Shown here: positions 2,042 to 64,000 of the stretch, piece by piece
Layout of the letters: every line of letters starts with the position of its first letter
Numbering within the stretch: the first letter of the stretch is position 1
NCBI GenBank assembly: GCA_024762335.1
Contig: JANTHO010000001.1
Span: 64,805-128,804, forward strand
DNA length: 64,000 nucleotides
Origin: Acidimicrobiia bacterium
GTDB taxonomy: Bacteria; Actinomycetota; Acidimicrobiia; Spongiisociales; UBA5794
Direction: 5' to 3'
The notes under the pieces: model-generated
Seen by the model: the letters and a program-made list of their open reading frames with translations, nothing else
The model's database searches: none
What the model was told of the DNA's origin: nothing
Translations under genes and position numbers: made by a program

Positions 2042-3046
2042 TTAATCGAGATCCCAGAACAGGGACAGGATCGGGAGAAGGCGGTCGATCGCCGGATCCT
2101 CCCCGCGATCCGGTTCGTGTCGTAACGCATCGGACGAGTCGAAGCCCTCGAGCGTCGCAGCCGTCGAATCGGTGATCGCAGGCAGGTTGTAGCCGCCTTC
2201 GAGGAAGAACACCGTGTTCGTGCGTCCGATCGATCGTCCCACCGATGCGGCCATCGATCGATAGTCGTCCGACACGAGCCCCATTCCTCCGAGTGGGTCG
2301 TCGACGTGCGCGTCGTAGCCGGCGCTCACGAGCACCCAGTCGGCATCGAACTGGTCGAGAACAGGCTCCACGATCCGGTCGAAAGCCCTGCGATACGTCT
2401 CGCCTCCGGTGCCATGCGGAAGAGGAATGTTGACCGTCGCGCCGGTGCCGAGCCCCCTGCCCACATCCTCGATCCGTCCGGTACCCGGATAGAACGGTGA
2501 TCGGTGGAGCGAGAGGTAGAGAACGTCAGGGGATCGGAAGAAGATGTTCTGGGTTCCGTTCCCGTGATGGACGTCCCAATCCACGATCGCTACCCGCGCT
2601 CCGCGATCAACGAGGTAGGCGGCCGCCACGGCAACGTTGTTGAGCAGGCAGAAACCCATGGTTCGGTCACGTTCGGCGTGATGTCCTGGAGGTCTGATCG
2701 CTGCGAATCCGACGACTGCTTCACCGCCGGTGATGCTCTCGATCGCCGTGAGTCCCGCACCTGCTGCGTATCGTGCCGCATCCCACGACCGGGGAACTGC
2801 GAACGTGTCGGCGTCGATCATCCCTCCGCCCTGCATACAGAACTCGTGGAGATGATCGACGAGCTCTGAATTGTGAACCCTGAGGATCTCATTCCGTGTC
2901 GCAGCGCGTGCCGTTGCTGCAACCACTTCGAGGCCGCTCGCCAGAACACCGGCCACTGCGGCACCTACTCGCTCCGGCCTCTCCGGATGGCCGGCGGGCG
3001 CGACGTGTTCGAGGCTCGTCGGATGTGTCACCAAAATGGACTTCAT
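2042..3046 (-). CDS. Histone deacetylase / acetoin utilization (AcuC-like) family protein
   Basis: RPPGHHAERDRTMGFCLLNNVAVAA, DWDVHHGNGTQ motifs. Confidence 0.9.
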   Translation of the reverse strand: MKSILVTHPTSLEHVAPAGHPERPERVGAAVAGVLASGLEVVAATARAATRNEILRVHNSELVDHLHEFCMQGGGMIDADTFAVPRSWDAARYAAGAGLTAIESITGGEAVVGFAAIRPPGHHAERDRTMGFCLLNNVAVAAAYLVDRGARVAIVDWDVHHGNGTQNIFFRSPDVLYLSLHRSPFYPGTGRIEDVGRGLGTGATVNIPLPHGTGGETYRRAFDRIVEPVLDQFDADWVLVSAGYDAHVDDPLGGMGLVSDDYRSMAASVGRSIGRTNTVFFLEGGYNLPAITDSTAATLEGFDSSDALRHEPDRGEDPAIDRLLPILSLFWDLD

Positions 3047-3129: not shown

Positions 3130-3864
3130 ATGTCGATGGCGGAGCGCCCTATTCCTGTGCTCCAGCGCGGTTCTTGGCCCAATCCGGTTCGCTTCCGGCG
3201 CGGCTGGGCACGGGCGGACGCCCGGCGTTGGAACGACGTCGTTCCCGACGCCGCGCTGCGTCTCGTGCGTGGCGGATCCTCCTTCCTCGAGTTGTGTTCG
3301 AACCGGCTCAACGCGATGGGCGCCCCCCACGTCTTCTCTCCACCTCTGCCGGCTGGGAGTCGCCGTCCGTGGGAGGCAGCGGGATTCGTCGAGTTCGTTC
3401 CACTGGCTTTCATGCGTCGTGACCTCACGGCCCACCTCCCGACACCCGACCATCTCGTCGTGGCCACGTCCGATGCGCCGTTCGACGATCTGCTCCGGAT
3501 CGATCACGAGGCATTCGACGACTTCTGGCGCTTCGATCGGTTCGGCATCGAGGAAGCCGTCACGGCAACGTCGAAGACGAAGATCCTCCTCATTCGAGGT
3601 CGTGACGGCGAACCGGTCGCCTTTGCCATCGTCGGAATAGGCCATGCCGTCGCCTATCTCCAACGACTCGCCGTCCATCCCGCCTGGCAGAACCAACGCA
3701 TGGGCCGGTCGCTGATTCGGGCTGCCGCCCGTACCGGCCGATCCGCCGGAAGTCGCGGATTGATGCTGAACACCCAGACGGACAACGATGCCGCCATCGC
3801 CCTCTACGAGTCGGAGGGTTTCGTGACGCTCCCCGAACCGTTGGCCGTGCTCCGCCGGGGATAG
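3130..3864 (+). CDS. GNAT family N-acetyltransferase
   Basis: In-frame ATG at 3130 inside ORF 2896-3864; AYLQRLAVHPAWQNQRMGRSLI and NDAAIALYESEGF motifs. Confidence 0.8.
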   Translation: MSMAERPIPVLQRGSWPNPVRFRRGWARADARRWNDVVPDAALRLVRGGSSFLELCSNRLNAMGAPHVFSPPLPAGSRRPWEAAGFVEFVPLAFMRRDLTAHLPTPDHLVVATSDAPFDDLLRIDHEAFDDFWRFDRFGIEEAVTATSKTKILLIRGRDGEPVAFAIVGIGHAVAYLQRLAVHPAWQNQRMGRSLIRAAARTGRSAGSRGLMLNTQTDNDAAIALYESEGFVTLPEPLAVLRRG

Positions 3865-3867
3865 CCG

Positions 3868-5157
3868 GTGCCCCCGCGAATCCCCAGCAGGTACCGGATG
3901 GACGTTCGCCTCGGAGCGGACGGCGACATCGAGGAATGGCTCGCGACCGATGAGCAGCTCGAACGGCCGGTCCTCATCCGATTTCCGGGACCCGATGCCG
4001 ATGCCGACCGCATCGCTCAGTTCCTCGCACCCGTCCGGGCGGCGGCGGCCACAAGCCACCCTCACGTTCAGACGATCTATATGGCCGAAGAGATCGGAGG
4101 ATCCGCGTTCGCCGTCGCCGAGTGGGACGGCGCAGTCACCATCGGCGATCGTCTCAGGGCCGGTGAGACACTTCCCGTCTCCGAGTATCTCCCGAACGCG
4201 TCCGGAGTCGCAGCAGGGCTCGCTGCGTTCCACGAGAACCGAGGAATCCACGGAGCGATCGATCCGAGCGCCATCCACTTTTCCGCCGCGCACCCTGCCC
4301 GTCTCGCCGGATTCGGACGACGACCCGTCACCACGACCGCAACGGGAGATACCGCTGCCCTCGCCGCCGCCCTCCGGACCGCGATCACCGGAACCTCCAA
4401 TCCTGCGGTACGCCCCTCGCATGTTGCCGAAGGCATCCCATCTTCGGTCGACGATGCCCTGACCGCGGCCGAGAGGGGCACCCTCGATGCGGCCGGTCTC
4501 GCAGATGCGCTCAGCGTCAGCAGCCTGCATCGGGAGCCGACGAACGACGGCCGCTGGTCGTTGAAACCGCTCGTGATATTCCTCATCGTTGCAGCGGCGG
4601 TCGTCATCCTCTCCGTGGTCGGCTTCTCAATTGACGTCGACCCCGACTCTCCGTTCCTCTATCCCGCGTCTCCTTCTGAACAGGAGAGCGACACTCCGAT
4701 AGCGCCGGCGGCGGATACGGAATCCGGGGAGCAGCCGGTGGTTCCGTCCACCGCAAGCTCCTACGACCCGTTCGGTGATGGTGTCGAAAACGACGAATTG
4801 GTGAGTGCCGTCGTCGACGGCGATCGCTTCTCTGCGTGGGAGACCGAACCCTATCCGGGGCCGCTCGGCGACACGAAGGCGGGCGTCGGCATCGTGCTCG
4901 AAGCGGTCAACCCGATCGGGGCGATCGAGATCACAGGCACACCCGGGACTCGTTTCGCGATCGCCTGGAATCTGACCCTCACAGACGATCCGGATTCGTG
5001 GGAACAGATCGGAGCCGGACAGCTGCTCACAGGAACGACCCATCTCGATGTCGCCCGCCGCGAGTCGGGGTTCTGGCTTCTGTGGCTCACGTCGCTTCCG
5101 CTCCGAGCCGACGGCTCGTACGGAACGTCGATCGCAGAGATTCGCCTCTTACCGTGA
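3868..5157 (+). CDS. Stand-alone pseudokinase–TM–discoidin-like protein (resembles C-terminal half of actinobacterial MviN/Rv3910)
   Basis: GTG start; kinase-like N-lobe, degenerate HGAIDPSAI / LAGFG motifs, one TM segment, extracellular YDPFGDGVENDELVSAVVDGDRFSAWETEPY module; located directly upstream of the ECF sigma gene. Confidence 0.7.
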   Translation: MPPRIPSRYRMDVRLGADGDIEEWLATDEQLERPVLIRFPGPDADADRIAQFLAPVRAAAATSHPHVQTIYMAEEIGGSAFAVAEWDGAVTIGDRLRAGETLPVSEYLPNASGVAAGLAAFHENRGIHGAIDPSAIHFSAAHPARLAGFGRRPVTTTATGDTAALAAALRTAITGTSNPAVRPSHVAEGIPSSVDDALTAAERGTLDAAGLADALSVSSLHREPTNDGRWSLKPLVIFLIVAAAVVILSVVGFSIDVDPDSPFLYPASPSEQESDTPIAPAADTESGEQPVVPSTASSYDPFGDGVENDELVSAVVDGDRFSAWETEPYPGPLGDTKAGVGIVLEAVNPIGAIEITGTPGTRFAIAWNLTLTDDPDSWEQIGAGQLLTGTTHLDVARRESGFWLLWLTSLPLRADGSYGTSIAEIRLLP

Positions 5158-5202
5158 CCGTGTTTGTCGCGTGCGAACCGCAATGAGACCAGAATCTCTC
5201 CT

Positions 5203-5778
5203 ATGACCGACCGCGTCGCAGAGGACCGTGCCCTGATTCGCCGCTATCTCACCGGCGACGTTGGCGCGTTCGACGAACTCATGCGCATCCACGAAGACCG
5301 CGTATTTGCCATCTGTATGCGCATGATGACGGATCGTGATGCCGCTCTCGACGCGACGCAGGACGTGTTCTTGACCGTCTTCCGCAAAGCCGATCGCTAC
5401 AAGGAACAAGCTGCCTTCAGCACCTGGCTGTACCGCGTCGCCATGAACACGTGCTACGACCACCTCCGGCGGCAGAAGCGCAAACGCACCGAATCACTGC
5501 CGGAGCAATTCGATCCCTCAGATCCGCGCGGCGGGGATGAAATGAACGCCGTTGAACTTCGCCCGGACATCGAGAACGCCCTGTCCAATCTCTCCGATGA
5601 CTTCCGGGCGGCGATCGTCCTGGTCGACCTCGAAGGGATGTCACTAGAGGGTGCTGCAAATACCCTCGAAGTGCCGGTCGGAACAGTGAAGAGCCGGGTG
5701 TTCCGGGCGAGAAAGCTCCTTGCGAAAGAACTCGGGAACCTGGCGCCGGGCTCCGGGCATCTAAGAGAAGAACCATGA
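5203..5778 (+). CDS. sigM: ECF RNA polymerase sigma factor (SigM-like position)
   Basis: Region 2 (DAALDATQDVFLTVFRKADRYKEQAAFSTWLYRVAMNTCYD) and region 4 (GTVKSRVFRARKLL) motifs; upstream of trxB as in other actinobacteria. Confidence 0.85.
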   Translation: MTDRVAEDRALIRRYLTGDVGAFDELMRIHEDRVFAICMRMMTDRDAALDATQDVFLTVFRKADRYKEQAAFSTWLYRVAMNTCYDHLRRQKRKRTESLPEQFDPSDPRGGDEMNAVELRPDIENALSNLSDDFRAAIVLVDLEGMSLEGAANTLEVPVGTVKSRVFRARKLLAKELGNLAPGSGHLREEP

Positions 5779-6620
5779 GAGACAGCGACCTCACCCTCAT
5801 CATCGATCTGATCGACGGTCGCCTTCCACCCGAAGAGGAGAAGGCGGCTCTCGCCGTGATCGAGGCCGATCCGGAGCTGCGCAGTGCCTACCGAACCCAG
5901 GTGGCGATCGTCGGCGAGCTCGCCGGCGCTCCAGCCCCGTCGATGACCCCGTCCGAACGGGAGACGCTGCACGCCGAACTCAAGACACAGCTTCAACTCG
6001 ATGAGGTGCCTGCCGTCGTGGCTTCCGCCCCCTCTCGATGGAATCGGTTGATCGCGCCGCTCGTCGGTCTGGCGGTCGGTGCAGCGGCGATCTTCGGAGC
6101 GGTCGTCGTCCTGCCGGGAACCCTCTCCGGCGGCGCCGATGAAGCGAACCTGGCCCTGTCCGAGACGACCACGACGGCCGCTGCAGGCACGCAGATGGCC
6201 GACAGCACCGTCGCTACGGCCGAAGCGGCGCCGGAAGCACCGGCCGAAGACGGCGTCCTCTCCGAGTCAGGGGCAGACGAAGTGGCCGGCGGAGCCGGCG
6301 ACGCGGCCGCCGGAATCCCCTTCGTCGCCGGTGTCGAACTCGCCGAACTCGCCGTTTCCTATGAATCCGGGGCAGCGCTGTTCGACGAATCAGCCGTGAA
6401 ACGCTCGGGCGACGATGTCGTTGTGAACGACGAACGACTCGCTTCGTGCATCGAACGCCTGTCGACCGGTGCGACCGGCTCGGCCATCACACCATTGATG
6501 ACGACCGTGTACGAGGGACTTCCTTCCGTGATCGTCGCCGTCGCCCCCCCGTCCGGAAGCGACTACCTGGTCGTCTACGCATTGGATGCGTGCGAAGAAA
6601 TAGCGACCACTCGACCGTAA
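5775..6620 (+). CDS. Putative anti-sigma factor, single-pass membrane protein
   Basis: ATGA overlap with sigma gene; acidic N-terminal domain, central TM segment, extracytoplasmic domain. Confidence 0.7.
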   Translation: MRDSDLTLIIDLIDGRLPPEEEKAALAVIEADPELRSAYRTQVAIVGELAGAPAPSMTPSERETLHAELKTQLQLDEVPAVVASAPSRWNRLIAPLVGLAVGAAAIFGAVVVLPGTLSGGADEANLALSETTTTAAAGTQMADSTVATAEAAPEAPAEDGVLSESGADEVAGGAGDAAAGIPFVAGVELAELAVSYESGAALFDESAVKRSGDDVVVNDERLASCIERLSTGATGSAITPLMTTVYEGLPSVIVAVAPPSGSDYLVVYALDACEEIATTRP

Positions 6621-6651
6621 CGGTCCGGCAGTTCGACTAACCTCAGTAGCC

Positions 6652-6960
6652 ATGACTGATCGCCCCCCCTCAGACTATCCGGCAAAGATCGCCGATCTTC
6701 TCGAGAACCTGGCTACCCGGATCCGCTCGATGACGGTGGACCGCGCATCCGTTGCCGTGACCTGGACCGCGATCGGCATTGTTGCCGTCACCGCTGCGTT
6801 CCTCGCATTGATCTGGCTCCTCGTTGGTTTCTTTCGTGCACTCGGTACCCTGATTGGACAGGAACTCGCGTACGCCGTCGTCGGGGGCATATTGCTGATC
6901 GTCGGCGTGTTGGTCTGGGTGAAGAGATTCCCAGACGAAGAGTCAACACCACAGGAGTAG
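6652..6960 (+). CDS. Small two-TM membrane protein of unknown function
   Basis: ORF with two hydrophobic segments between anti-sigma gene and trxB. Confidence 0.6.
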   Translation: MTDRPPSDYPAKIADLLENLATRIRSMTVDRASVAVTWTAIGIVAVTAAFLALIWLLVGFFRALGTLIGQELAYAVVGGILLIVGVLVWVKRFPDEESTPQE

Positions 6961-6962
6961 CC

Positions 6963-7880
6963 ATGGCCGAGAAGGTCCTGGTTGTCGGATCCGGACCAGC
7001 CGGGCTGACGGCCGCAATTTACGCAGCGCGAGCCGACCTCGATCCACTGATGATCGAAGGGATGGAGCGCGGTGGGCAACTGATGCTCACAACAGAAGTC
7101 GAGAACTTCCCCGGTTTTCCTGACGGCATCATGGGCCCGGAACTCATGGACAGCATGCGAAAGCAGGCTGAGCGATTCGGAACACGCATCGTCTCTTCCG
7201 ATGTGACGAAGGCCGATCTCTCCTCCCGACCGTTCAAAGTCTGGGTCGGTGACGATCTCTACGAAGCCGAGAGCCTCATCATCTCCACCGGTGCTTCCGC
7301 ACGATGGCTCGGCATCCCCGGCGAGAGTCGCCTCCGCGGGTACGGCGTTTCGGCATGTGCCACCTGCGACGGCTTCTTCTTCCGCGACCGGGACATCGCG
7401 ATCGTCGGAGGTGGAGATTCGGCCATGGAGGAAGCCCTCTTTCTCACGAAATTCGCCTCGAAAGTCACCATCGTGCACCGGCGCGAGGAATTCCGCGCTT
7501 CCAAGATCATGTCGCAACGGGCGCTGGACCATCCGAAGATCGAGGTGCTGTGGAACACGACCGTGGAAGAGGTTCTCGGTGACGACCTGGTGACCGGCCT
7601 GCGGGTGAAGAACGTCAAGACCGGCGAGTCGTCGACGCTCCCCGTCGAAGGCTTCTTCCTCGCGATCGGCCACGACCCGAATACCAATATTTTCCAGGGA
7701 CAGATCGATCTCGATCCCTCCGGATACATCATCACCGATCCCGGTTCCTCGAAGACCTCCGTTGACGGCGTGTTCGCCGCCGGGGACGTCGTCGACCACT
7801 ACTACCAGCAAGCCATCACCGCGGCCGGGATGGGGTGCCGCGCGGCGATCGATGTCGAACACTGGTTGAACCAGACCTGA
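6963..7880 (+). CDS. trxB: Thioredoxin reductase
   Basis: GSGPAGLTAAIYAARA, CATCDG redox motif, GGGDSAMEEA. Confidence 0.97.
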   Translation: MAEKVLVVGSGPAGLTAAIYAARADLDPLMIEGMERGGQLMLTTEVENFPGFPDGIMGPELMDSMRKQAERFGTRIVSSDVTKADLSSRPFKVWVGDDLYEAESLIISTGASARWLGIPGESRLRGYGVSACATCDGFFFRDRDIAIVGGGDSAMEEALFLTKFASKVTIVHRREEFRASKIMSQRALDHPKIEVLWNTTVEEVLGDDLVTGLRVKNVKTGESSTLPVEGFFLAIGHDPNTNIFQGQIDLDPSGYIITDPGSSKTSVDGVFAAGDVVDHYYQQAITAAGMGCRAAIDVEHWLNQT

Positions 7881-7941
7881 AATCCAGTCCATTTCCGCCA
7901 CCGAACCGGTCCGGCGGATCACACACCACCAGGGAGTCAAG

Positions 7942-8268
7942 ATGGGACAGAACACCGTGACAGGTACGGATGCGACCTTCGCCGAACTGATCGGGTCGGA
8001 CACTCCAACCCTTGTCGACTTTTGGGCCGAATGGTGCGGCCCATGCAAGATGATGGATCGCCCACTCGAGGAGATCGCAGCTGATCGGGCTGGCCAGATC
8101 CAGATCGTGAAGTTGAACGTCGACGAGAATCCCTCCACTGCAATGCAGTACGGGGTCATGAGCATCCCGACGATGATGATCTTCCAATCAGGCCAGGAGA
8201 AGAAGCGTCTCGTGGGCGCACGGAGCAAGGCACAGCTGGAAGCGGAGATCGCGTCGTTCGTCTCCTGA
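7942..8268 (+). CDS. trxA: Thioredoxin
   Basis: FWAEWCGPCKM active site. Confidence 0.97.
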   Translation: MGQNTVTGTDATFAELIGSDTPTLVDFWAEWCGPCKMMDRPLEEIAADRAGQIQIVKLNVDENPSTAMQYGVMSIPTMMIFQSGQEKKRLVGARSKAQLEAEIASFVS

Positions 8269-8293
8269 TTCTCCATCACCCGGAAGGGACAGC

Positions 8294-9256
8294 GTGAGGC
8301 TGTATCACACGGGAGATCGCGGGGAACCGGTCCGCGACATCCAGCAGCGCCTCAAGAATCTCGACTTCGCCATCACACCCGATGGGGTCTACGGGACGGC
8401 GACGCAAGCCGTCGTCCGGGAATTCCAGGAATCACGCGGACTGCCCGCCGACGGCATCGTCGGCCCCGAAACATGGAAGGCGCTCGTCGATGCCGGATTC
8501 TGTCTCGGTGATCGTCTGCTCTATCGGCGGTCGCCCATGATGCGCGGCGATGACGTCTCACGGCTTCAGCAGAGTCTCGGCGCGCTCGGTTTCGATGCCG
8601 GGAAGGTCGACGGCCTCTTCGGCCCGGACACGCTTCGTGCAGTGCTCGACTTCCAGCGCAACCGGAGCATGCCCGAGGACGGGATCGCCGGCCGCGAAGT
8701 CGTCGAGGAGCTCGCGCTCATGGCGAAGGCAACCGACAAGCCGGCGAGAACGATCGTGCGGGAGCACGAGTGGATCGATTCCCTTCCGCGACCCATCACC
8801 GGAGCCCGTATCTATGTGGATCCCGAAGGCACCGACCCTTCCACCGCAGGCATCACGTGGACGATCGGCACGGCCGTCGCCGGACATCTACGGGAGGCCG
8901 GGGCTCAGCCCCTGCTGTCGCGAAGCGTCGACACCGCCCCGAGCGAGCACCTCAGAGCGTCACGAGCGAACCGACTCGACGCCCAGATCGTCCTCTCGAT
9001 CGTTCTGCCAACCGATGGCGCCGAGGGCGTGTTCTTCTTCGGCACCACGCTCAGCACGAGCGCTGCCGGGCACGTCGTCGCCCGCCATCTCGCCCCACGG
9101 CTGGGTCTCTCAGCGCTTCCCCGGGCTGTTCCCATCCTCAAGGAGACGCGATCCCCTGCCATCGTCATCTCCATCGTCGATCCGCCCGCGAACTTCGGAG
9201 AAGAGATCGCACGGGCGTTGATCGACCTGTACGAATCGGGTCCCGACGACGCCTGA
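8294..9256 (+). CDS. cwlM: CwlM-like protein: two peptidoglycan-binding domains plus amidase_3-like fold lacking zinc ligands
   Basis: GTG start; two PG_binding_1 repeats (GDRGEPVRDIQQRLKNLDF; GDDVSRLQQSLGALGF); C-terminal amidase-like region; position between trxA and parB as CwlM. Confidence 0.75.
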   Translation: MRLYHTGDRGEPVRDIQQRLKNLDFAITPDGVYGTATQAVVREFQESRGLPADGIVGPETWKALVDAGFCLGDRLLYRRSPMMRGDDVSRLQQSLGALGFDAGKVDGLFGPDTLRAVLDFQRNRSMPEDGIAGREVVEELALMAKATDKPARTIVREHEWIDSLPRPITGARIYVDPEGTDPSTAGITWTIGTAVAGHLREAGAQPLLSRSVDTAPSEHLRASRANRLDAQIVLSIVLPTDGAEGVFFFGTTLSTSAAGHVVARHLAPRLGLSALPRAVPILKETRSPAIVISIVDPPANFGEEIARALIDLYESGPDDA

Positions 9257-9272
9257 CCTGTTCCTCGTCGGG

Positions 9273-10130
9273 CTACGATCCGAACAGCTGCCGGTAGATC
9301 CGCTCGAGATCCGCCAGCGAGCCGTACCGAATGGTGAGCCTTCCACCGTCACCGCTGGTCTTGATCTTCACGTCCGTCTCGAGTCGTTCGGCGAGACGCT
9401 CTTCCAGTTCGATGATGGCCGCGGGCCTCATCACCGGCATCGGCTTCGGTACAGGCTCCTTCCGGTGAGACCGTTCCCTCACCGCCTCTTCCGTCTGGCG
9501 AACCGACAACCCCTCGGAGACCACGCGTTCGGCGATGTGTACGGCGTAGGCCTCGTCGTCGAGCGCCAGCAACGCTCTCGCATGCCCAGCCGACAGCTCT
9601 TCGCGTTCGAGCATGCCCTGGATGTGTGGAGGAAGCTGGAGGAGCCTCAGCGTATTCGTCACGGCGCTGCGGCTCTTCCCTACCCGTGCCGCAACCCCTT
9701 CGTGCGTCATTCCAAAATCTTCCAGTAAGTTCCGGTAGGCTGCTGCTTCTTCCAGCGGGGAGAGGTCCTTGCGTTGGACGTTCTCGATCAACGCCTCCGT
9801 CAGGTCCCGTTCATCACTCTCCGACGCACGAATCACCGCGGGAATCACCGAAAGACCGGCGAGTTCGGCGGCACGGAGGCGCCGCTCCCCTGCCACGAGC
9901 ACGTACGCACCCTCACGATTACCAGGCCTCACCACGACGGGTTGCAGGACACCCACTTCGCGGATCGAGGCGGCCAACTCCGCGAGCAATTCCTCGTTGA
10001 ACCGGGACCGGGGTTGCTGGGGGTTCGGGACGACCTCCGAGATTTCGATCTCGGCGAATCCGACCGATGGGTGATCGACGGGGATCAGTGCATCGAGGCC
10101 CCGTCCCAGCCCTCCTTTACGTGCGGCCAT
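9273..10130 (-). CDS. parB: Chromosome partitioning protein ParB
   Basis: GLGRGLDALIP, NPQQPRSRFNEE, GERRLRAAELAG motifs. Confidence 0.97.
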   Translation of the reverse strand: MAARKGGLGRGLDALIPVDHPSVGFAEIEISEVVPNPQQPRSRFNEELLAELAASIREVGVLQPVVVRPGNREGAYVLVAGERRLRAAELAGLSVIPAVIRASESDERDLTEALIENVQRKDLSPLEEAAAYRNLLEDFGMTHEGVAARVGKSRSAVTNTLRLLQLPPHIQGMLEREELSAGHARALLALDDEAYAVHIAERVVSEGLSVRQTEEAVRERSHRKEPVPKPMPVMRPAAIIELEERLAERLETDVKIKTSGDGGRLTIRYGSLADLERIYRQLFGS

Positions 10131-26796: not shown

Positions 26797-26910
26797 TACA
26801 CTTCGTGTCCCGGGTTCGCCCGGGTGCCGATCGTTGAAGCGAAGTCCGGTGAGAATCCGGCGCTGTCCCGCAACTGTGAAGCCCTCCGGGGATGAGCCAG
26901 GTCGCCTTCC
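26797..26910 (+). ncRNA. Cobalamin riboswitch aptamer
   Basis: GAAGCGAAGTCCGGTGAGAATCCGGCGCTGTCCCGCAACTGTGA core and GAGCCAGGTCGCC B12-box-like segment. Confidence 0.93.
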
Positions 26911-26987
26911 TCTCGGTACACGACTGTGCCTTCGGAGGAGGGGTTCCGTCGCTTCATGAAGGCTCCTCCAGCGAAAGGAGGAGCATC

Positions 26988-56271: not shown

Positions 56272-56335
56272 ATCCACGTGTATTTGGTCGTGACTGTCCG
56301 GTAGAGCTCTCGCGAACCCAGGGTTGCGGAGGTCG

Positions 56336-56593
56336 CTAGCGGTAGTTGAGCGTCATCCCGAAGCCGATACCGATCATTGCGAGGCCCAACAGGAGGAACT
56401 TGTTATCGGCTCGCCCTCCGAAAAGTCCCATGTAGTTGAGGAGGATCACGACGATCCCCAGAGCCATGAGACCGAACATGGTCACCACGTACCACGTTGG
56501 CGACGGGCCTTTGGTGTCGACCTGGCTGGCGGTCGGGTTCTTCGGCGGGGTCGGTCGTTTGTTGGCCTTCTTGCGGCCCTTCGATACTGGCAT
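56336..56593 (-). CDS. crgA: Cell division protein CrgA
   Basis: MPVSKGRKKANKRPTPPKNPT... two-TM protein; synteny with trpG/pknB. Confidence 0.88.
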   Translation of the reverse strand: MPVSKGRKKANKRPTPPKNPTASQVDTKGPSPTWYVVTMFGLMALGIVVILLNYMGLFGGRADNKFLLLGLAMIGIGFGMTLNYR

Positions 56594-56677
56594 GGGGTCA
56601 ATCGTAGCGACCGTTGGCTCCGATCCCAACGGGAGATCGGTTCCCGTTGTGTGGTCTCGCCGGTACGCTGCGCATCT

Positions 56678-57490
56678 ATGGACGAGACGCCAGCCACACC
56701 GACCGGCAAATCGAACTCCCGGCCAATGGAGGTCGTGAGGCGCGTCGTCCGAATCATCGGGTGGACGAGCATCGTCGCAGGCGTTCTCATCCTCGGGTTC
56801 GTCGCCCAACAACTCTTCGTCACGACCTGGTTCGCTCAACAGAACCAGGAGGCGCTCGTCGAAGAGGTGGAGACACACTTCGAGGCGGCGGAGATCACCG
56901 AGGTCGAGTACACGCCCCCCGCACCGTCGACGACCACGCCGGGAGTGGGAACGACTCAGCCACCGGGGGAGGTAACTCCCGGCGCGGGAGGCTCGGGAAC
57001 CGATCCCGGCGCACCACTTGTGCCGAAGAAGCGGACGATTCTCGTCGAATCGACACCGGAGAAGCACAGTGCGTTCGCGATCATCCGGATCCCGACCATC
57101 GATCGCCTGAAGGATGGGTGGACCGTCGTCGAAGGTGTGTCGCTCCGTGATCTGAAGAACGGTGCCGGGCACATGCCCCACACGCCCCTCCCGGGACAGC
57201 CGGGAAACGCCGTCATCTCGGGTCATCGAACGACCTATGGGGCCCCATTCCACGAACTCGACACACTCAACCCCGGCGACATCATCGAAGTTGACACGGC
57301 TCTGGGGACCCACACGTATGCTGTGAGAGAGACGATTATCGTCCGTCCGACCGAACTGTGGGTGACCGAACCGCGTGACGGGGCGTGGCTGACCCTCACG
57401 ACATGCCACCCGAAGTTCTCGGCGCGTCAGCGGTTGATCGTCTTCGCAGAACTCATCGACGGGCCCAACTGGGAGGCGATCTACGCATGA
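56678..57490 (+). CDS. Class E-type sortase
   Basis: GNAVISGHRTTYGAPFHELDTLNPGD; LTLTTCHPKFSARQRLIV catalytic Cys/Arg. Confidence 0.92.
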   Translation: MDETPATPTGKSNSRPMEVVRRVVRIIGWTSIVAGVLILGFVAQQLFVTTWFAQQNQEALVEEVETHFEAAEITEVEYTPPAPSTTTPGVGTTQPPGEVTPGAGGSGTDPGAPLVPKKRTILVESTPEKHSAFAIIRIPTIDRLKDGWTVVEGVSLRDLKNGAGHMPHTPLPGQPGNAVISGHRTTYGAPFHELDTLNPGDIIEVDTALGTHTYAVRETIIVRPTELWVTEPRDGAWLTLTTCHPKFSARQRLIVFAELIDGPNWEAIYA

Positions 57491-58227: not shown

Positions 58228-59058
58228 CTATTCGGCGATGCGGTACGTTCCCTCGCCGTCGACGGTGACCAGACCCTCGTCTGAGAGATCAGCCAAGGCG
58301 CTCTTCACATCTTTCGCGGGGAAACCCGTTTGACGGGCGATCTCCTGCTCGGTCGCCGCCCCGCCGACGAGAGAGCGGACGATGGCGCCGCGCAACTGGC
58401 GTGCGGATCCCTCGAATCGGCCCTGAGGCGTCGGAGGACGATACGAGTCCGGTCCGACGCACCATTGGCAGACGGGACAGCCGGCGCAGTCGGGATTCCT
58501 GGGCAGGCATCGCGTGGCGCCGAGATCCATCACTGCCTGATTCCACTCCGCGGCGGGATCGCCCAGATCGTCGGCAGCCACCGTACGGAGCGCCGGACCG
58601 CTCAGCGATTCCCCGTGCCAGCGGCTCAGAACCCGGCGCATGTTCGTGTCGACGGTCGCGACCCGTCGTCCGAATGCGAACGAAGCAACGGCGGCTGCCG
58701 TGTACGGGCCGATGCCGGGGAGTTCGACGAGACCGGCGGTCGTCGTCGGCCACCCGTCCCTAGAGACGATCCTCGCTGTCTCGCGCAAGCGCAACGCCCG
58801 CGAGTTGTAGCCGAGACCCGTCCAGAAAGCGAGAACGTCCCTGAGATCCGCCGATGCGAGGTCGGCTGCGGTCGGGAAGGAATCGACGAACCGCTCGTAG
58901 AACGGGATCACGCGTGACGCCTGTGTCTGCTGAAGCATCACCTCGGATACCAGAATCTTGTAGGGGTCGCTCTCACCTCTCCACGGGAAGGATCGCTGCT
59001 CCGCCCGATACCACGCCAGGAGGGCGCCGTTGCGTTCCTGCTCGACGAGGAGCGTCAT
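58228..59058 (-). CDS. mutY: A/G-specific adenine glycosylase MutY
   Basis: ELPGIGPYTAAAVASFAFG HhH; CLPRNPDCAGCPVCQWC 4Fe-4S motif. Confidence 0.93.
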   Translation of the reverse strand: MTLLVEQERNGALLAWYRAEQRSFPWRGESDPYKILVSEVMLQQTQASRVIPFYERFVDSFPTAADLASADLRDVLAFWTGLGYNSRALRLRETARIVSRDGWPTTTAGLVELPGIGPYTAAAVASFAFGRRVATVDTNMRRVLSRWHGESLSGPALRTVAADDLGDPAAEWNQAVMDLGATRCLPRNPDCAGCPVCQWCVGPDSYRPPTPQGRFEGSARQLRGAIVRSLVGGAATEQEIARQTGFPAKDVKSALADLSDEGLVTVDGEGTYRIAE

Positions 59059-61349
59059 CAGGGAGAAGTCGTGGTCGTCGCCGGGCCCTTCGAGACGACG
59101 ATGTTCACGGTTGACCCGCGATCGACCGACGTCCCCCCGATCGGATTCTGGGAGATCACGGTCCCGGCGAGCGCTGCATCCTCAACTTCGGTCTTCGAGA
59201 CAACGAGTCCCGCAGCCGTTATGGCGTTGGTCGCATCCGCTTCGGTCATGTCCGTCACATCGGGAACCGTGACCTTCTCGACCTCACCGAGAAGGACCGT
59301 CACCTGGCTGCCGTCGTCGACCTGGGTGCCCGCAGGCGGACTCTGATCGGCGACTTTGTCGATGTTCGGGTCACCGGGTGGCACGATCGTGGTCCCGCCG
59401 ACGATCACATCCACCCCAACAGCAGCACCGGCCGCGGCCGCTTCATTCGCGGTCATTCCCGTGAAGTCGGGGACGGCGACCTGTTTGATGACACCGATCT
59501 TCACCGTGACATCGGTCCCCGAGTCCACGGTCGTGCCGGCGCCGGGGCTCTGCTCTGCGACGAGACCATCGAGACCGCTGGCTGCAGAAACTTCGACCGT
59601 CCCGTCTTCGACGATGCTGAGGTTCGCGTTCTCCGCCGCGGCAGTGGCATCGGCGATCGACATGCCCACGAGGTTGGGGACGGTCGCCGGTTCGGGACCC
59701 TTCGAAACCCAGACAACGATGGTGTCCTCGCGCCCGACGACCCGACCCGCCTCGGGGTCGGTGCGTATCGTGAATCCAACGGCGATATCGGGCGAGAACT
59801 CCTCATTTGACGTGACGTTCGTGAAACCCGCTCTCGCCAACTCGAGCTGGGCCTCGTCGCCCGATTTGCCCGAGACATCCGGAACCTCGAGGGAGAACGG
59901 CCCCTTTGAGACAACGAGATTGACGAGAGAGCTCGCGGCCGCTTCGGTCCCGGCGGATGGATCCTGCGATATCACCGTGTTCGCAGGAACGTCCTCGGTG
60001 AGGGTGTATTCGACACGGCCGACCTGGAACCCCTGGGCTTCGATGAGCGCCCTGGCGACTTCTTCCGTTTCTCCGACGACCGATGGGACCGCAAACTGCT
60101 CCGTTCCTGCGGATTCGATCACGGTGACGAACGAACCCTTCTCAACTTCGGTCCCAGCCGTCGGTTCGGTGTCGATGACCACGCCGGCCGGGACCGTCTC
60201 GCTGTTCTCCAGACGATTCAGTACCTTGAGATCGAGTTCCTGGAGCGTCCTGGACGCGGTCTCCGCCGGAACGAGCTTCAAGTCCGGAATGGTGACCATG
60301 CCTCCACCTCCGCCGGTGCCGGTGAAGAGGCGGAACAGGATGAAGACGCCGATGGCGAGCAACCCCAGGAGGGCGATCACCGCGGCGACGTAAGCTCCCT
60401 GACCCGTTGTTCCGTCTTCCGTCTGGCTGGCGACGACTCGCGCGGTCTCGTCGGGTGGAACCGTCGCGGGAGGAGGCACGAGAGCGGTCGCCGCGGCAGC
60501 AGCCGCTGCACCCACGACGAGCGGCTGACGACCGGAGAGGAAGAGAAGCAGGTCGGAACGAAGATCGGCGGCGCTCGGATACCGATCGGCGGGACTCTTG
60601 GCCATCGCTGCCTCGTCGATGGCGGAGAGTTCTTGGGGAACTTCCGGGTTGACCTGAGCGGCCGTCGGTGCGAACTCGGACACGTGCTGGTACGCGACGG
60701 CGACCGGACTTTCGCCGGTGAACGGGGGTTGGCCGGTGAGCATCTCGTACAGCACCACGCCGAGCGAGTAGACGTCCGACCGGCCGTCGGCGGGAAGACC
60801 CTGTGCCTGCTCCGGGCTGAAGTACGTGGCGGTGCCGATGACGGCGCCGGTGCGGGTCAGTTCTTCGGAGTCATCGAGCGCTCTCGCGATTCCGAAGTCG
60901 GTCACTTTGACCGAACCGTCACGCGTGATCATGATGTTCCCGGGCTTGATGTCCCGGTGCACGACGCCGGCCTGATGGGCAACGGTGAGCGCCGCGGCGG
61001 TTTCGGCGGCGATCTCGGCGGCTCTCCTGGGGAAGAGAGCGCCTTCGTTCTTGAGGATGTCGCGCAGCGTCCGACCTTCGATCAACTCCATGACCATGAA
61101 GTAGGTCGGTCCATCCTTCCCCCAGTCGTATATGGCGACGATGTTCGGGTGGCTCAGGTTTGCCGCAGCCTGGGCTTCCCGCTTGAAGCGGGTGACGAAC
61201 GCATCGTCCGAGGAGAAGTTCGCATGGAGGACCTTCACCGCGACCCGGCGATTGAGCAAGGTGTCTTCGGCTTCATAGACATCGGCCATTCCACCTCTGG
61301 CGAGATGTTTGACGATGCGATATCGGTCGGAGAGAACGCGATTTTCCAT
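59058..61349 (-). CDS. pknB: Serine/threonine protein kinase PknB with six PASTA repeats
   Basis: LARGGMADVYEAEDTLLNRRVAVKVL; VHRDIKPGNIMI; DFGIARAL; TM; six PASTA-like units. Confidence 0.95.
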   Translation of the reverse strand: MENRVLSDRYRIVKHLARGGMADVYEAEDTLLNRRVAVKVLHANFSSDDAFVTRFKREAQAAANLSHPNIVAIYDWGKDGPTYFMVMELIEGRTLRDILKNEGALFPRRAAEIAAETAAALTVAHQAGVVHRDIKPGNIMITRDGSVKVTDFGIARALDDSEELTRTGAVIGTATYFSPEQAQGLPADGRSDVYSLGVVLYEMLTGQPPFTGESPVAVAYQHVSEFAPTAAQVNPEVPQELSAIDEAAMAKSPADRYPSAADLRSDLLLFLSGRQPLVVGAAAAAAATALVPPPATVPPDETARVVASQTEDGTTGQGAYVAAVIALLGLLAIGVFILFRLFTGTGGGGGMVTIPDLKLVPAETASRTLQELDLKVLNRLENSETVPAGVVIDTEPTAGTEVEKGSFVTVIESAGTEQFAVPSVVGETEEVARALIEAQGFQVGRVEYTLTEDVPANTVISQDPSAGTEAAASSLVNLVVSKGPFSLEVPDVSGKSGDEAQLELARAGFTNVTSNEEFSPDIAVGFTIRTDPEAGRVVGREDTIVVWVSKGPEPATVPNLVGMSIADATAAAENANLSIVEDGTVEVSAASGLDGLVAEQSPGAGTTVDSGTDVTVKIGVIKQVAVPDFTGMTANEAAAAGAAVGVDVIVGGTTIVPPGDPNIDKVADQSPPAGTQVDDGSQVTVLLGEVEKVTVPDVTDMTEADATNAITAAGLVVSKTEVEDAALAGTVISQNPIGGTSVDRGSTVNIVVSKGPATTTTSP

Positions 61350-61398
61350 GATCAGTAACGATGGTACCGACGGAACGGAGTTTGGGGGTGCCGGCCGG

Positions 61399-62862
61399 TC
61401 ATCGGAGGTAGGTTTCGAAGAGTCTTGCGGCGATCGGTGCAGCGACCGATCCGCCGGAGGCCGTCTCGCCCGCCGGTCCGCCGTTCTCGAGGAGCACCGC
61501 CACGGCGATGCGCCGTTCTCCCGGTTCGGGATCGACGGGTGCGAACCCGATGAACCAGACATGGGGAGATGATCCGGTCACCTCGGCGGTTCCGGTCTTG
61601 CCCGCGACGCGCAGGTCTGGTACGGCGGCGTTGTGTCCCGTTCCGGAGATCACCGCCTTCTCCATCATGTCGGAGAGCACGGCGGCGGAAGCGGGGCTGA
61701 TGGCTCTCCTCCAGAGCGTCGGTTCGGTTGTGGACTCGATCTTGCCGTCGTGGGTGAACACGTCGGCGACGACGAACGGGATCATGATGTTCCCCTCATT
61801 CGCGACGGCTGCGGCAACGAGAGCCATCTGCACGGGGGTGGCCCGCACGTCCCGCTGACCGAGAGCATTCTGAGCGGCGGCGGCAGGGTCATCGGCATAG
61901 GTCGCGGAGTCCGGCATCGAAGAGGGAACGACCGGGAGTTCGTATGGGATGACGCTGTTGAATCCGAACGCTTCCGCCGTGGCTGTGAGTGTCTCTGCAC
62001 CCACTTCCATCCCGAGCGCCGCGAGTGTCGTGTTGCATGAGTGGACGAACGCATCCTCGAGTGTCACGGTGCGACCGTCGAGACACACATCGTCGTCGTA
62101 GTTGTGGATCGTTGCCGTCGTTCCTGGAAGTTCGAGAGCGATGGGGTCTGGGAATTCGGTCGAGGGTCCTGCGATGCCCGATTCGAGTGCGGCTGCAGCT
62201 GTGATCACTTTGAAAGTGGAACCCGGTGGGTAGGTCGCGTTCACGGTGCGGTGGAGGAGCGGCTGATCCGGGTCGTTCTCGAGTTCAGCGCCGGCAGGGC
62301 CGGCGTCGGGGCCGATGAGGCTGTTGGGGTCATATCCGGGTGTCGACACGCTTGCGAGAACGGCTCCGGTCGACGGATCGATGGCGATGATCGAGCCCCG
62401 CTGGCCGGCGAGCGCTTCGACGGCCACCTGTTGGAGGGCATCGTCGATTGTGAGTCGCAGACCTCTCGGGCGCGGATCTCCACCGAGCATGACGTTCAGC
62501 ACGCCGGAGATCGTGGAGTCCCGGTGCGACACGAGGTCGTTCTCTCTCGTGCGTTCGAGCCCGCGCGAACCGAAGAGGACGGAGGTGAAACCGACCGTGT
62601 GGGCGTACCGGGCCTCCTCCGGGTAGACGCGTGTGAATGTCTGCGGGTCCGTCTGACTCGGATCCGAACGGGCCGTCACGACCGCATCGGCGGTAATGAT
62701 GGCTCCGCGTTCCCTTCCGACGCGCCAGGCGGTGAGCCGGGGGTTTCTCGGGTCGTCGCGGTATCCGGGCCCTGCGATCGCCTGGATCCATGTGGTGGCG
62801 AGGATGAGAGCGAGGAAGGTTCCGAGGATCGCCCATGCCGTTCTGCGTATGGGAGCGTTCAT
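61399..62862 (-). CDS. pbpA: Penicillin-binding protein PbpA (FtsI-like transpeptidase)
   Basis: YPPGSTFKVITAAAAL SxxK; VHSCNTT SxN; AGKTGTAEV KTG. Confidence 0.95.
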   Translation of the reverse strand: MNAPIRRTAWAILGTFLALILATTWIQAIAGPGYRDDPRNPRLTAWRVGRERGAIITADAVVTARSDPSQTDPQTFTRVYPEEARYAHTVGFTSVLFGSRGLERTRENDLVSHRDSTISGVLNVMLGGDPRPRGLRLTIDDALQQVAVEALAGQRGSIIAIDPSTGAVLASVSTPGYDPNSLIGPDAGPAGAELENDPDQPLLHRTVNATYPPGSTFKVITAAAALESGIAGPSTEFPDPIALELPGTTATIHNYDDDVCLDGRTVTLEDAFVHSCNTTLAALGMEVGAETLTATAEAFGFNSVIPYELPVVPSSMPDSATYADDPAAAAQNALGQRDVRATPVQMALVAAAVANEGNIMIPFVVADVFTHDGKIESTTEPTLWRRAISPASAAVLSDMMEKAVISGTGHNAAVPDLRVAGKTGTAEVTGSSPHVWFIGFAPVDPEPGERRIAVAVLLENGGPAGETASGGSVAAPIAARLFETYLR

Positions 62863-64000
62863 GTTCGTTCCTCATGGGAGACCCGGCCCAGGAGCGCAAC
62901 GATGAGCCCCGATGCCAGCAGCGACGACCCCCCGTACGACATGAACGGGAGCGTGATGCCGGTGATCGGGAACAGCCGAACGATCCCGGCGATGATGAGG
63001 AACGATTGGAGACCGATGAGGATCGTCAGCCCGGCGGCGAGATACTTGCGGAACCGGTCGCGTGACCGGAGAGCGATCCCGAAGCCGACGGTCACGAGAA
63101 AGGCGTATGCGACGATGATCCCGACGGATCCGGCGAGGCCGAGCTCTTCGGCGACCGCGGCGAAGATGAAATCCGTCGTGGCAGCGGGGATGAGGTCGGG
63201 CCGGCCGAGACCAAGACCTGAACCGGTCAGGCTCCCGCTTCCCATGGCGAACAGGCCCTGTGCCGTCTGGTATCCGGCACCGGTGTAGTCGGCGAACGGA
63301 TGGATCCAGGCGGAGATGCGCACACGGACATGGTCGAACATGGAGTACGCAGCAGCGCCGGCGACCGTGACGAGAAAGAGGCCTGTTCCGAGGTAGAAGC
63401 CGCGGCCGGTCGCCGCATACAACATCCCGACGAACAGTCCGAACAGAAGCAGCGAGGCCCCGAGGTCCCGCTGATAGATCAACACCACGAACGCGGCGCC
63501 TGCGGCGACGACGATCGGGCCGAGATGGCGGGGCTCCGGAAGCCGGAACGGGCCGATCTTGCGCGACACCGTCGCCATCGCTTCCGCTCGGTCCGCGAGG
63601 TACGACGCCAGAAAGATGGTGAGCAGAACCTTGGCGATCTCACCCGGTTGGAACGACAGGACCCTCGCGGCGAACGGGAGATCGATGCGCACCCAAAGTC
63701 GCGACCCGTTGACGACGGCTCCGTAGATCGGCCAGGTGGATGGAAGGAGGGGGAGCAGCAGGAGAACGGTCGCAGCGATGAGAAACAGGTAGCGGTAGCG
63801 GCGCAGGACGGCGATCCCCGAAGAACGCAGGAGCCACACGGTACCTGCCGCCGCCGCTCCGGCGAGGACGAGCCACCACCGCTGCAGCGCCGCGAGACCG
63901 GGATCCAGCCGCAGGATCTCGGTTGATCCGATCGCGGCCAGGAAGGTTGCGATCGGGAGAAGGAGGGGATTGGCGTTCGGTGCCCACATGCGGAACGCGA
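62859..64000 (-). CDS. rodA: RodA/FtsW/SpoVE glycosyltransferase (5' end probably beyond window)
   Basis: RLWVRIDLPFAARVLSFQPGEIAKVLLTIFLASYLADR; FMSYGGSSLLASGLIVALL. Confidence 0.93.
   Translation of the reverse strand, partial: AFRMWAPNANPLLLPIATFLAAIGSTEILRLDPGLAALQRWWLVLAGAAAAGTVWLLRSSGIAVLRRYRYLFLIAATVLLLLPLLPSTWPIYGAVVNGSRLWVRIDLPFAARVLSFQPGEIAKVLLTIFLASYLADRAEAMATVSRKIGPFRLPEPRHLGPIVVAAGAAFVVLIYQRDLGASLLLFGLFVGMLYAATGRGFYLGTGLFLVTVAGAAAYSMFDHVRVRISAWIHPFADYTGAGYQTAQGLFAMGSGSLTGSGLGLGRPDLIPAATTDFIFAAVAEELGLAGSVGIIVAYAFLVTVGFGIALRSRDRFRKYLAAGLTILIGLQSFLIIAGIVRLFPITGITLPFMSYGGSSLLASGLIVALLGRVSHEERT

Follow-up and report, generated by a model that had tools for sequence, protein, structure and literature searches.

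The window analyzed here, a 64,000-nt stretch of an Acidimicrobiia genome of the order UBA5794, contains the gene order pcnA-rnhA-pilT-HDAC-GNAT-pseudokinase-sigM-rsmA-small membrane protein-trxB-trxA-cwlM-parB-parA. The pseudokinase gene (positions 3868 to 5157, plus strand) has a GTG start and encodes a stand-alone pseudokinase-transmembrane (TM)-discoidin protein of 429 amino acids. It follows a GNAT acetyltransferase gene (3130 to 3864, plus strand, with a likely ATG start at 3130) after a gap of 3 bp, and the two likely form one operon. Downstream on the same strand lie the genes for a SigM-type extracytoplasmic function (ECF) sigma factor (5203 to 5778; ATG at 5203, with a TTG at 5164 also possible), a putative membrane anti-sigma factor in the RsmA position (5775 to 6620), which overlaps sigM by 4 bp, and a small predicted membrane protein (6652 to 6960) that occupies the same rsmA/trxB interval across the order and matched no family above the cutoff. 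These are followed by trxB, trxA, and a CwlM-like PG_binding/Amidase_3 gene (6963 to 9256, plus strand), a syntenic anchor in common with Rv3913-Rv3915. Upstream, on the minus strand, are genes for a PilT-like ATPase (893 to 1984) and an HDAC-like deacetylase (2042 to 3046). Elsewhere in the window, the minus strand encodes PknB with six PASTA domains, PbpA, and RodA (59058 to 63989), which are candidate signaling partners, and an FHA protein in the FhaB position is encoded nearby, just past the window end. A gene for a sortase-domain protein (56324 to 57490, plus strand) adjoins the pabA/pknB region, and an AdoCbl (cobalamin) riboswitch (Rfam RF01482, 52.1 bits) was found at 26814 to 26954 on the plus strand.

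Of 60 related genomes, 57 have an orthologue of the 429-residue protein, with 38 to 87% identity; such orthologues occur in every sampled family of the order except f8, to which the remaining three genomes, with weak kinase matches only, all belong. The open reading frame is real, given these orthologues, the position of sigM directly downstream at 62 of the 62 loci of the order with sigM in reach, and a dN/dS ratio of 0.06 to 0.09 in the kinase lobe. An AlphaFold2 model built on an alignment of 47 orthologues (mean pLDDT, 86) comprises a two-lobed kinase-like domain at residues 9 to 218, a TM helix at residues 233 to 254, a disordered stalk at residues 261 to 287, and a beta-sandwich at residues 294 to 428. 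On the DNA, the cytosolic pseudokinase domain spans 3892 to 4521 and the TM helix, with a mean hydropathy of 3.15, spans 4564 to 4629; the largely disordered extracytoplasmic stalk (4630 to 4737) has a partly conserved DPDSPFL.P motif right after the TM helix and leads into a discoidin/CBM32-like beta-sandwich domain (residues 291 to 429; 4738 to 5154), all on the plus strand. The outer domain modeled alone reached a pLDDT of 92.8. Among Pfam and NCBIfam models, none named the protein, and Pfam held no model for its outer domain. A Foldseek search with the whole model returned PknE and Stk1, with the kinase-homology domain of Mycobacterium tuberculosis Rv3910 (3uqc, 3oun, 3otv, and 3ouk) within the top twenty, while the outer domain matched CBM32 and F5/8-type C modules.

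The catalytic motifs of the window protein are lost throughout. H128-G-A (residues 128 to 130) replaces HRD, A135 the catalytic Asn, G148-F-G (residues 148 to 150) DFG, and R38 the beta3 Lys. The change is common to the order: in its 47 sequences, the beta3 Lys is always Arg, the catalytic Asn is always Ala, Ser, or Thr, and the DFG Asp is always Ala, Gly, or Ser, while the HRD Asp is gone in 46. The alphaF Asp (Asp161 in the window protein) is retained in all 47. The interval from the DFG position to this Asp is 13 residues in the window protein versus about 40 in active relatives, and alphaG is missing. The initial annotation had described a stand-alone pseudokinase-TM-discoidin gene before a SigM-like gene, with degenerate HRD, Asn, and DFG motifs and a match to the C-terminal half of mycobacterial MviN (Rv3910). 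That description holds, with R38 to be added to its list of motifs, and the structural comparison that it called for recovered both the kinase and the discoidin-type folds.

Selection on the protein was assessed in pairs within genus. The dN/dS ratio of 0.06 to 0.09 in the kinase lobe compares with about 0.08 to 0.26 in the discoidin domain, and the lobe was well lower in nearly all pairs. The dead kinase lobe is thus the most constrained part of the protein and is under strong purifying selection, so that it looks like a working pseudokinase rather than a decaying gene. Two N-lobe positions of PknB type, R10 and L33, are retained in the dead and nearly all active proteins. In PknB, these are back-to-back dimer positions; a third such residue, D76, is not retained.

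Comparison of loci places the surroundings of the gene in context. In the order, a GNAT gene lies at most 150 bp upstream of the pseudokinase gene at 50 of 63 loci, and a DegV gene is still present at 3 of 64. A fuller version of the locus is found elsewhere in the Acidimicrobiia (L217), where it reads pilT-HDAC-GNAT-Rv3909L-murJ-DegV-active kinase/discoidin-sigM-trxB-trxA-cwlM-parB-parA. An Rv3909-like gene is found at none of the 64 pseudokinase loci of the order, and searches detected an Rv3909-like protein in none of 39 genomes of the order. A homologous protein served as the query, since PF19516 was uninformative (no control matched), and the same query does match other Acidimicrobiia. 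The annotation thus correctly noted that the Rv3909-like gene is absent and that the locus has RNase H, PilT-like, HDAC-like, and GNAT genes. That they stand there "instead" does not hold: pilT, HDAC, and GNAT also flank the sister loci that keep the Rv3909-like gene and murJ and are therefore ancestral neighbors in the Acidimicrobiia rather than substitutes for lost genes. In family f8 (L203 to L208), the pseudokinase gene is gone and pilT-HDAC-GNAT-(DegV)-sigM-trxB-cwlM is retained, so the gene is dispensable there. At another locus of the sample, L213 (positions 6275 to 10081, minus strand, genome G062), a single frame of 1,268 amino acids gave matches to the Rv3909-like protein as well as to MurJ and may be a fusion of the two genes.

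MurJ is neither fused nor adjacent to the pseudokinase, as the annotation had stated. A search of the genome recovered a single full-length MurJ, an unfused protein of 537 amino acids encoded on another contig (C6); a second, weak match was to another transporter-like protein. MurJ proteins from ten genomes of the order group in a single clade, apart from the locus MurJ of other Acidimicrobiia. That the order's MurJ is a moved locus copy was rejected (union with the locus MurJ, approximately unbiased [AU] test, P = 1e-4), and its union with a second MurJ type of other Acidimicrobiia was borderline rejected (P = 0.04). Most parsimoniously, the order lost the locus murJ, and another MurJ took over its work. 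In family f9, murJ is elsewhere and the kinase is active, so kinase death is not simply a consequence of murJ relocation. A few kilobases from the unlinked murJ, contig C6 also encodes several proteins with cell-wall-binding-repeat-like sequence (repeated VVLGG...RLAGxDRYATA; L033, 1069 to 8395).

The kinase-TM-discoidin gene extends well beyond the Acidimicrobiia. In a sample of about 200 genomes of Actinobacteriota (the genomes of this study being metagenome-assembled), the discoidin-domain profile alone matched 97 of 199, nearly always in stand-alone frames, mostly of 450 to 700 amino acids. The same profile also finds the fused mycobacterial proteins; frames fused to MurJ (1,184 to 1,360 amino acids) were confined to mycobacteria. 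One of these, L188 (1,184 amino acids), matches the Rv3910 crystal constructs (E = 8e-128) and has the VALT/LSIDHPSR motifs that are given for the MviN of M. tuberculosis (PMC12599244). Many other lineages have an unfused murJ immediately upstream of the kinase-discoidin gene, which adjoins sigM in other classes too. Of 40 loci examined, 26 retain all four catalytic residues (K/D/N/D), including those of sister Acidimicrobiia families, although some of these active kinases, encoded at other loci, are possible paralogues; the other 14 lack the full set. In its ancestral state, the module was an active receptor kinase. Since it is stand-alone in all sampled lineages but mycobacteria, the unfused state is ancestral. 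Of the two origins that the initial annotation had offered, an ancestral unfused state or a split, the former therefore stands; the split of a fused ancestor was rejected as unlikely, as long MurJ-fused frames were seen in mycobacteria alone.

To place the loss of catalysis, we used a tree built from as many as six genes of the locus (1,745 columns, 60 rows); the other trees were made by quick search. In the locus-gene tree, all members of the order, f8 among them, form one clade (100/100) beside Acidimicrobiia with active discoidin kinases, and mycobacteria fall into a separate clade with other actinomycete pseudokinases. The active and dead states need at least four changes. On this tree, then, the kinase died at least four times, and its loss in the window's order is separate from the mycobacterial loss. 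Forcing the order and mycobacteria into one clade cost 667 log units (P = 8e-34), a test that concerns the genomes. Resolution is weak in the trees of the protein itself, which reject neither a grouping with mycobacteria (P = 0.33 to 0.35) nor one with Acidimicrobiia (P = 0.09 to 0.39); discoidin-only and full-length protein trees were too weak at depth to place the dead kinases. Vertical descent consequently rests on synteny and the locus-gene tree.

At the sequence level, convergence between the order and MviN is visible in a hinge Trp and in the short activation segment, of 12 residues in MviN and 13 in the window protein. The hinge Trp is present in 65 of 65 proteins of the order, in 7 of 14 other dead proteins, and in none of the 26 active ones; W86 of the window protein corresponds to MviN W789 by alignment to 3OTV, a residue reported to complete the C-spine (PMC12599244).

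MviN, of which the structures 3OTV, 3OUK, 3OUN, and 3UQC are available, consists of MurJ, the pseudokinase, a TM helix, and an extracytoplasmic domain. The window protein resembles it in having a pseudokinase, TM helix, and discoidin-like domain in the same order, in its position before sigM-rsmA-trxB-trxA-cwlM in a pcnA-...-parA locus, and in the loss of all catalytic motifs, together with the shortened segment and the hinge Trp. It differs in that it has no MurJ fusion, its MurJ being unlinked and of another clade, in that its tail has no conserved Thr for FhaA and its C-lobe no alphaG, in its replacement residues (VLIR/HGA/GFG versus VALT/LSI/FPA), and in the separate origin of its catalytic death on the locus-gene tree. 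The active kinase-TM-discoidin proteins at the same locus in other Actinobacteriota (for example, those of L163, L168, L194, and L217) are orthologous to it by synteny and discoidin domain, including within the same class, but their Lys, HRD, Asn, and DFG are intact, the activation segment runs to about 40 residues, and the C-lobe is complete; they usually have 490 to 680 amino acids. With the actinobacterial ActPs3 family of O'Boyle et al. (PMC12599244), the window protein has in common the loss of all three motifs, the activation-loop deletion, and the hinge Trp. ActPs3 members other than MviN lack a carbohydrate-binding domain (PMC12599244), whereas the window protein has a domain of that type; of the ActPs3 constraint residues, MviN W789 matches W86, and MviN F724 aligns with an invariant E23. 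Because catalytic death was independent on the locus-gene tree, the resemblance to ActPs3 is at least partly convergent. PknB-type PASTA kinases are the closest PDB sequence relatives of the lobe and have in common with it the R10/L33 positions, but the window protein has no PASTA repeats, no catalytic residues, and a discoidin-like outer domain.

We consider it probable that the window protein is a catalytically dead, single-pass envelope receptor or scaffold derived from an actinobacterial receptor Ser/Thr kinase. Its history would have begun with a gene for an ancestral receptor kinase (kinase-TM-discoidin) between murJ and sigM. The outer CBM32/discoidin-like domain may bind an envelope glycan or precursor, and the signal could cross the membrane by dimerization through the N-lobe face rather than by phosphorylation. 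A cytosolic partner would dock on the dead lobe, and the candidates for it are the PASTA kinase PknB, CwlM, and the SigM/RsmA switch. The strong conservation of the N-lobe and its dimer face points to a binding platform of this kind.

Other readings of the same data were weighed. In mycobacteria, phosphorylation of Thr947 in the MviN tail by PknB is followed by binding of FhaA and a restraint on peptidoglycan synthesis (PMC10166564, PMC12599244). It is conceivable that the window protein acts likewise in trans, with PknB phosphorylating its tail and FhaA binding there so as to hold back the flipping of lipid II by the unlinked MurJ. The module is homologous to that of MviN, the window encodes a PASTA PknB and the genome FHA proteins, an FhaA_N domain was found in 25 of 26 relatives, and a CwlM-like gene lies nearby, mycobacterial CwlM binding MurJ or FhaA according to its phosphorylation state (PMC6180346). 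Nevertheless, residues 185 to 235, the site of the MviN ADRT(947) tail, have no conserved Thr or Ser, and FhaA docking as in MviN is thus not supported by this juxtamembrane region; the MurJ of the order and the locus MurJ of other Acidimicrobiia fall into different clades (AU test, above), and FhaA_N also occurs in an f8 genome from which this pseudokinase is missing. We therefore regard this reading as unlikely. The mycobacterial model is itself contested, since a 2025 study argued that FhaA instead promotes synthesis (PMC11898655). A sensor that controls the cotranscribed SigM/anti-sigma pair, in which RsmA or SigM is bound or set free by the pseudokinase when a ligand occupies the outer domain, would suit the invariable adjacency of sigM across the order, the sigM/rsmA overlap, and the persistence of sigM beside the kinase in other classes. 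The argument is one of operon neighborhood, however, and f8 keeps sigM without the pseudokinase; we judge such control to be quite improbable. Mycobacterial sigM adjoins mviN as well, and we know of no direct control there.

Residual chemistry was also considered. The invariance of R38 (47/47) would suit an atypical nucleotide-binding enzyme with Arg in place of Lys, and ActPs2, which has the same change, is predicted to bind ATP (PMC12599244); activity of the ActPs2 or SelO-like kind is nonetheless very doubtful for a protein that has lost every metal-ligand Asn and Asp (the catalytic Asn and the DFG Asp are both missing in 47/47) and has a collapsed activation segment and the hinge Trp of MviN, which binds neither ATP nor Mg (PMC12599244). 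Finally, the complete loss of the gene in f8 could mark a functionless kinase remnant on its way out. This is scarcely credible: the gene is kept in seven sampled families of the order, and decay is contradicted by the dN/dS values, with purifying selection strongest in the dead lobe.

The receptor/scaffold reading can be extended to the phylum, although we do so only tentatively. A receptor kinase for envelope sensing, its gene lying between murJ and sigM, may have been phylum wide, with the regulatory half of MviN as its remains and with repeated, convergent loss of catalysis. In the UBA5794 order, it may have persisted as a receptor that works independently of phosphorylation once its MurJ and Rv3909-like partners had been lost or replaced, signaling having moved from catalysis to scaffolding. 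The pseudokinase extension of MviN has been described as confined to organisms having an arabinogalactan layer (PMC10166564), whereas the same module is found here as a separate gene across Actinobacteriota, often as an active kinase beside murJ. This gives an ancestral function to examine, namely, the substrate of the active kinase beside murJ. In the open literature, we found nothing specific on the Streptomyces homologue beside mviN; an earlier report of a separate kinase gene may exist. The repeated, partly convergent losses of catalysis provide natural replicates of the conversion of a kinase to a pseudokinase and bear on how the regulation by MviN arose.

Two further loci of the sample vary the arrangement. 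L212, from an AT-rich genome of the same class (G066), has between murJ and sigM a gene for a degenerate kinase of 358 amino acids with a C-terminal TM helix and no discoidin domain, probably another loss of catalysis. L191, from a mycobacterial genome (G314), encodes a second, catalytically complete kinase of 638 amino acids, whose discoidin domain groups with that of MviN.
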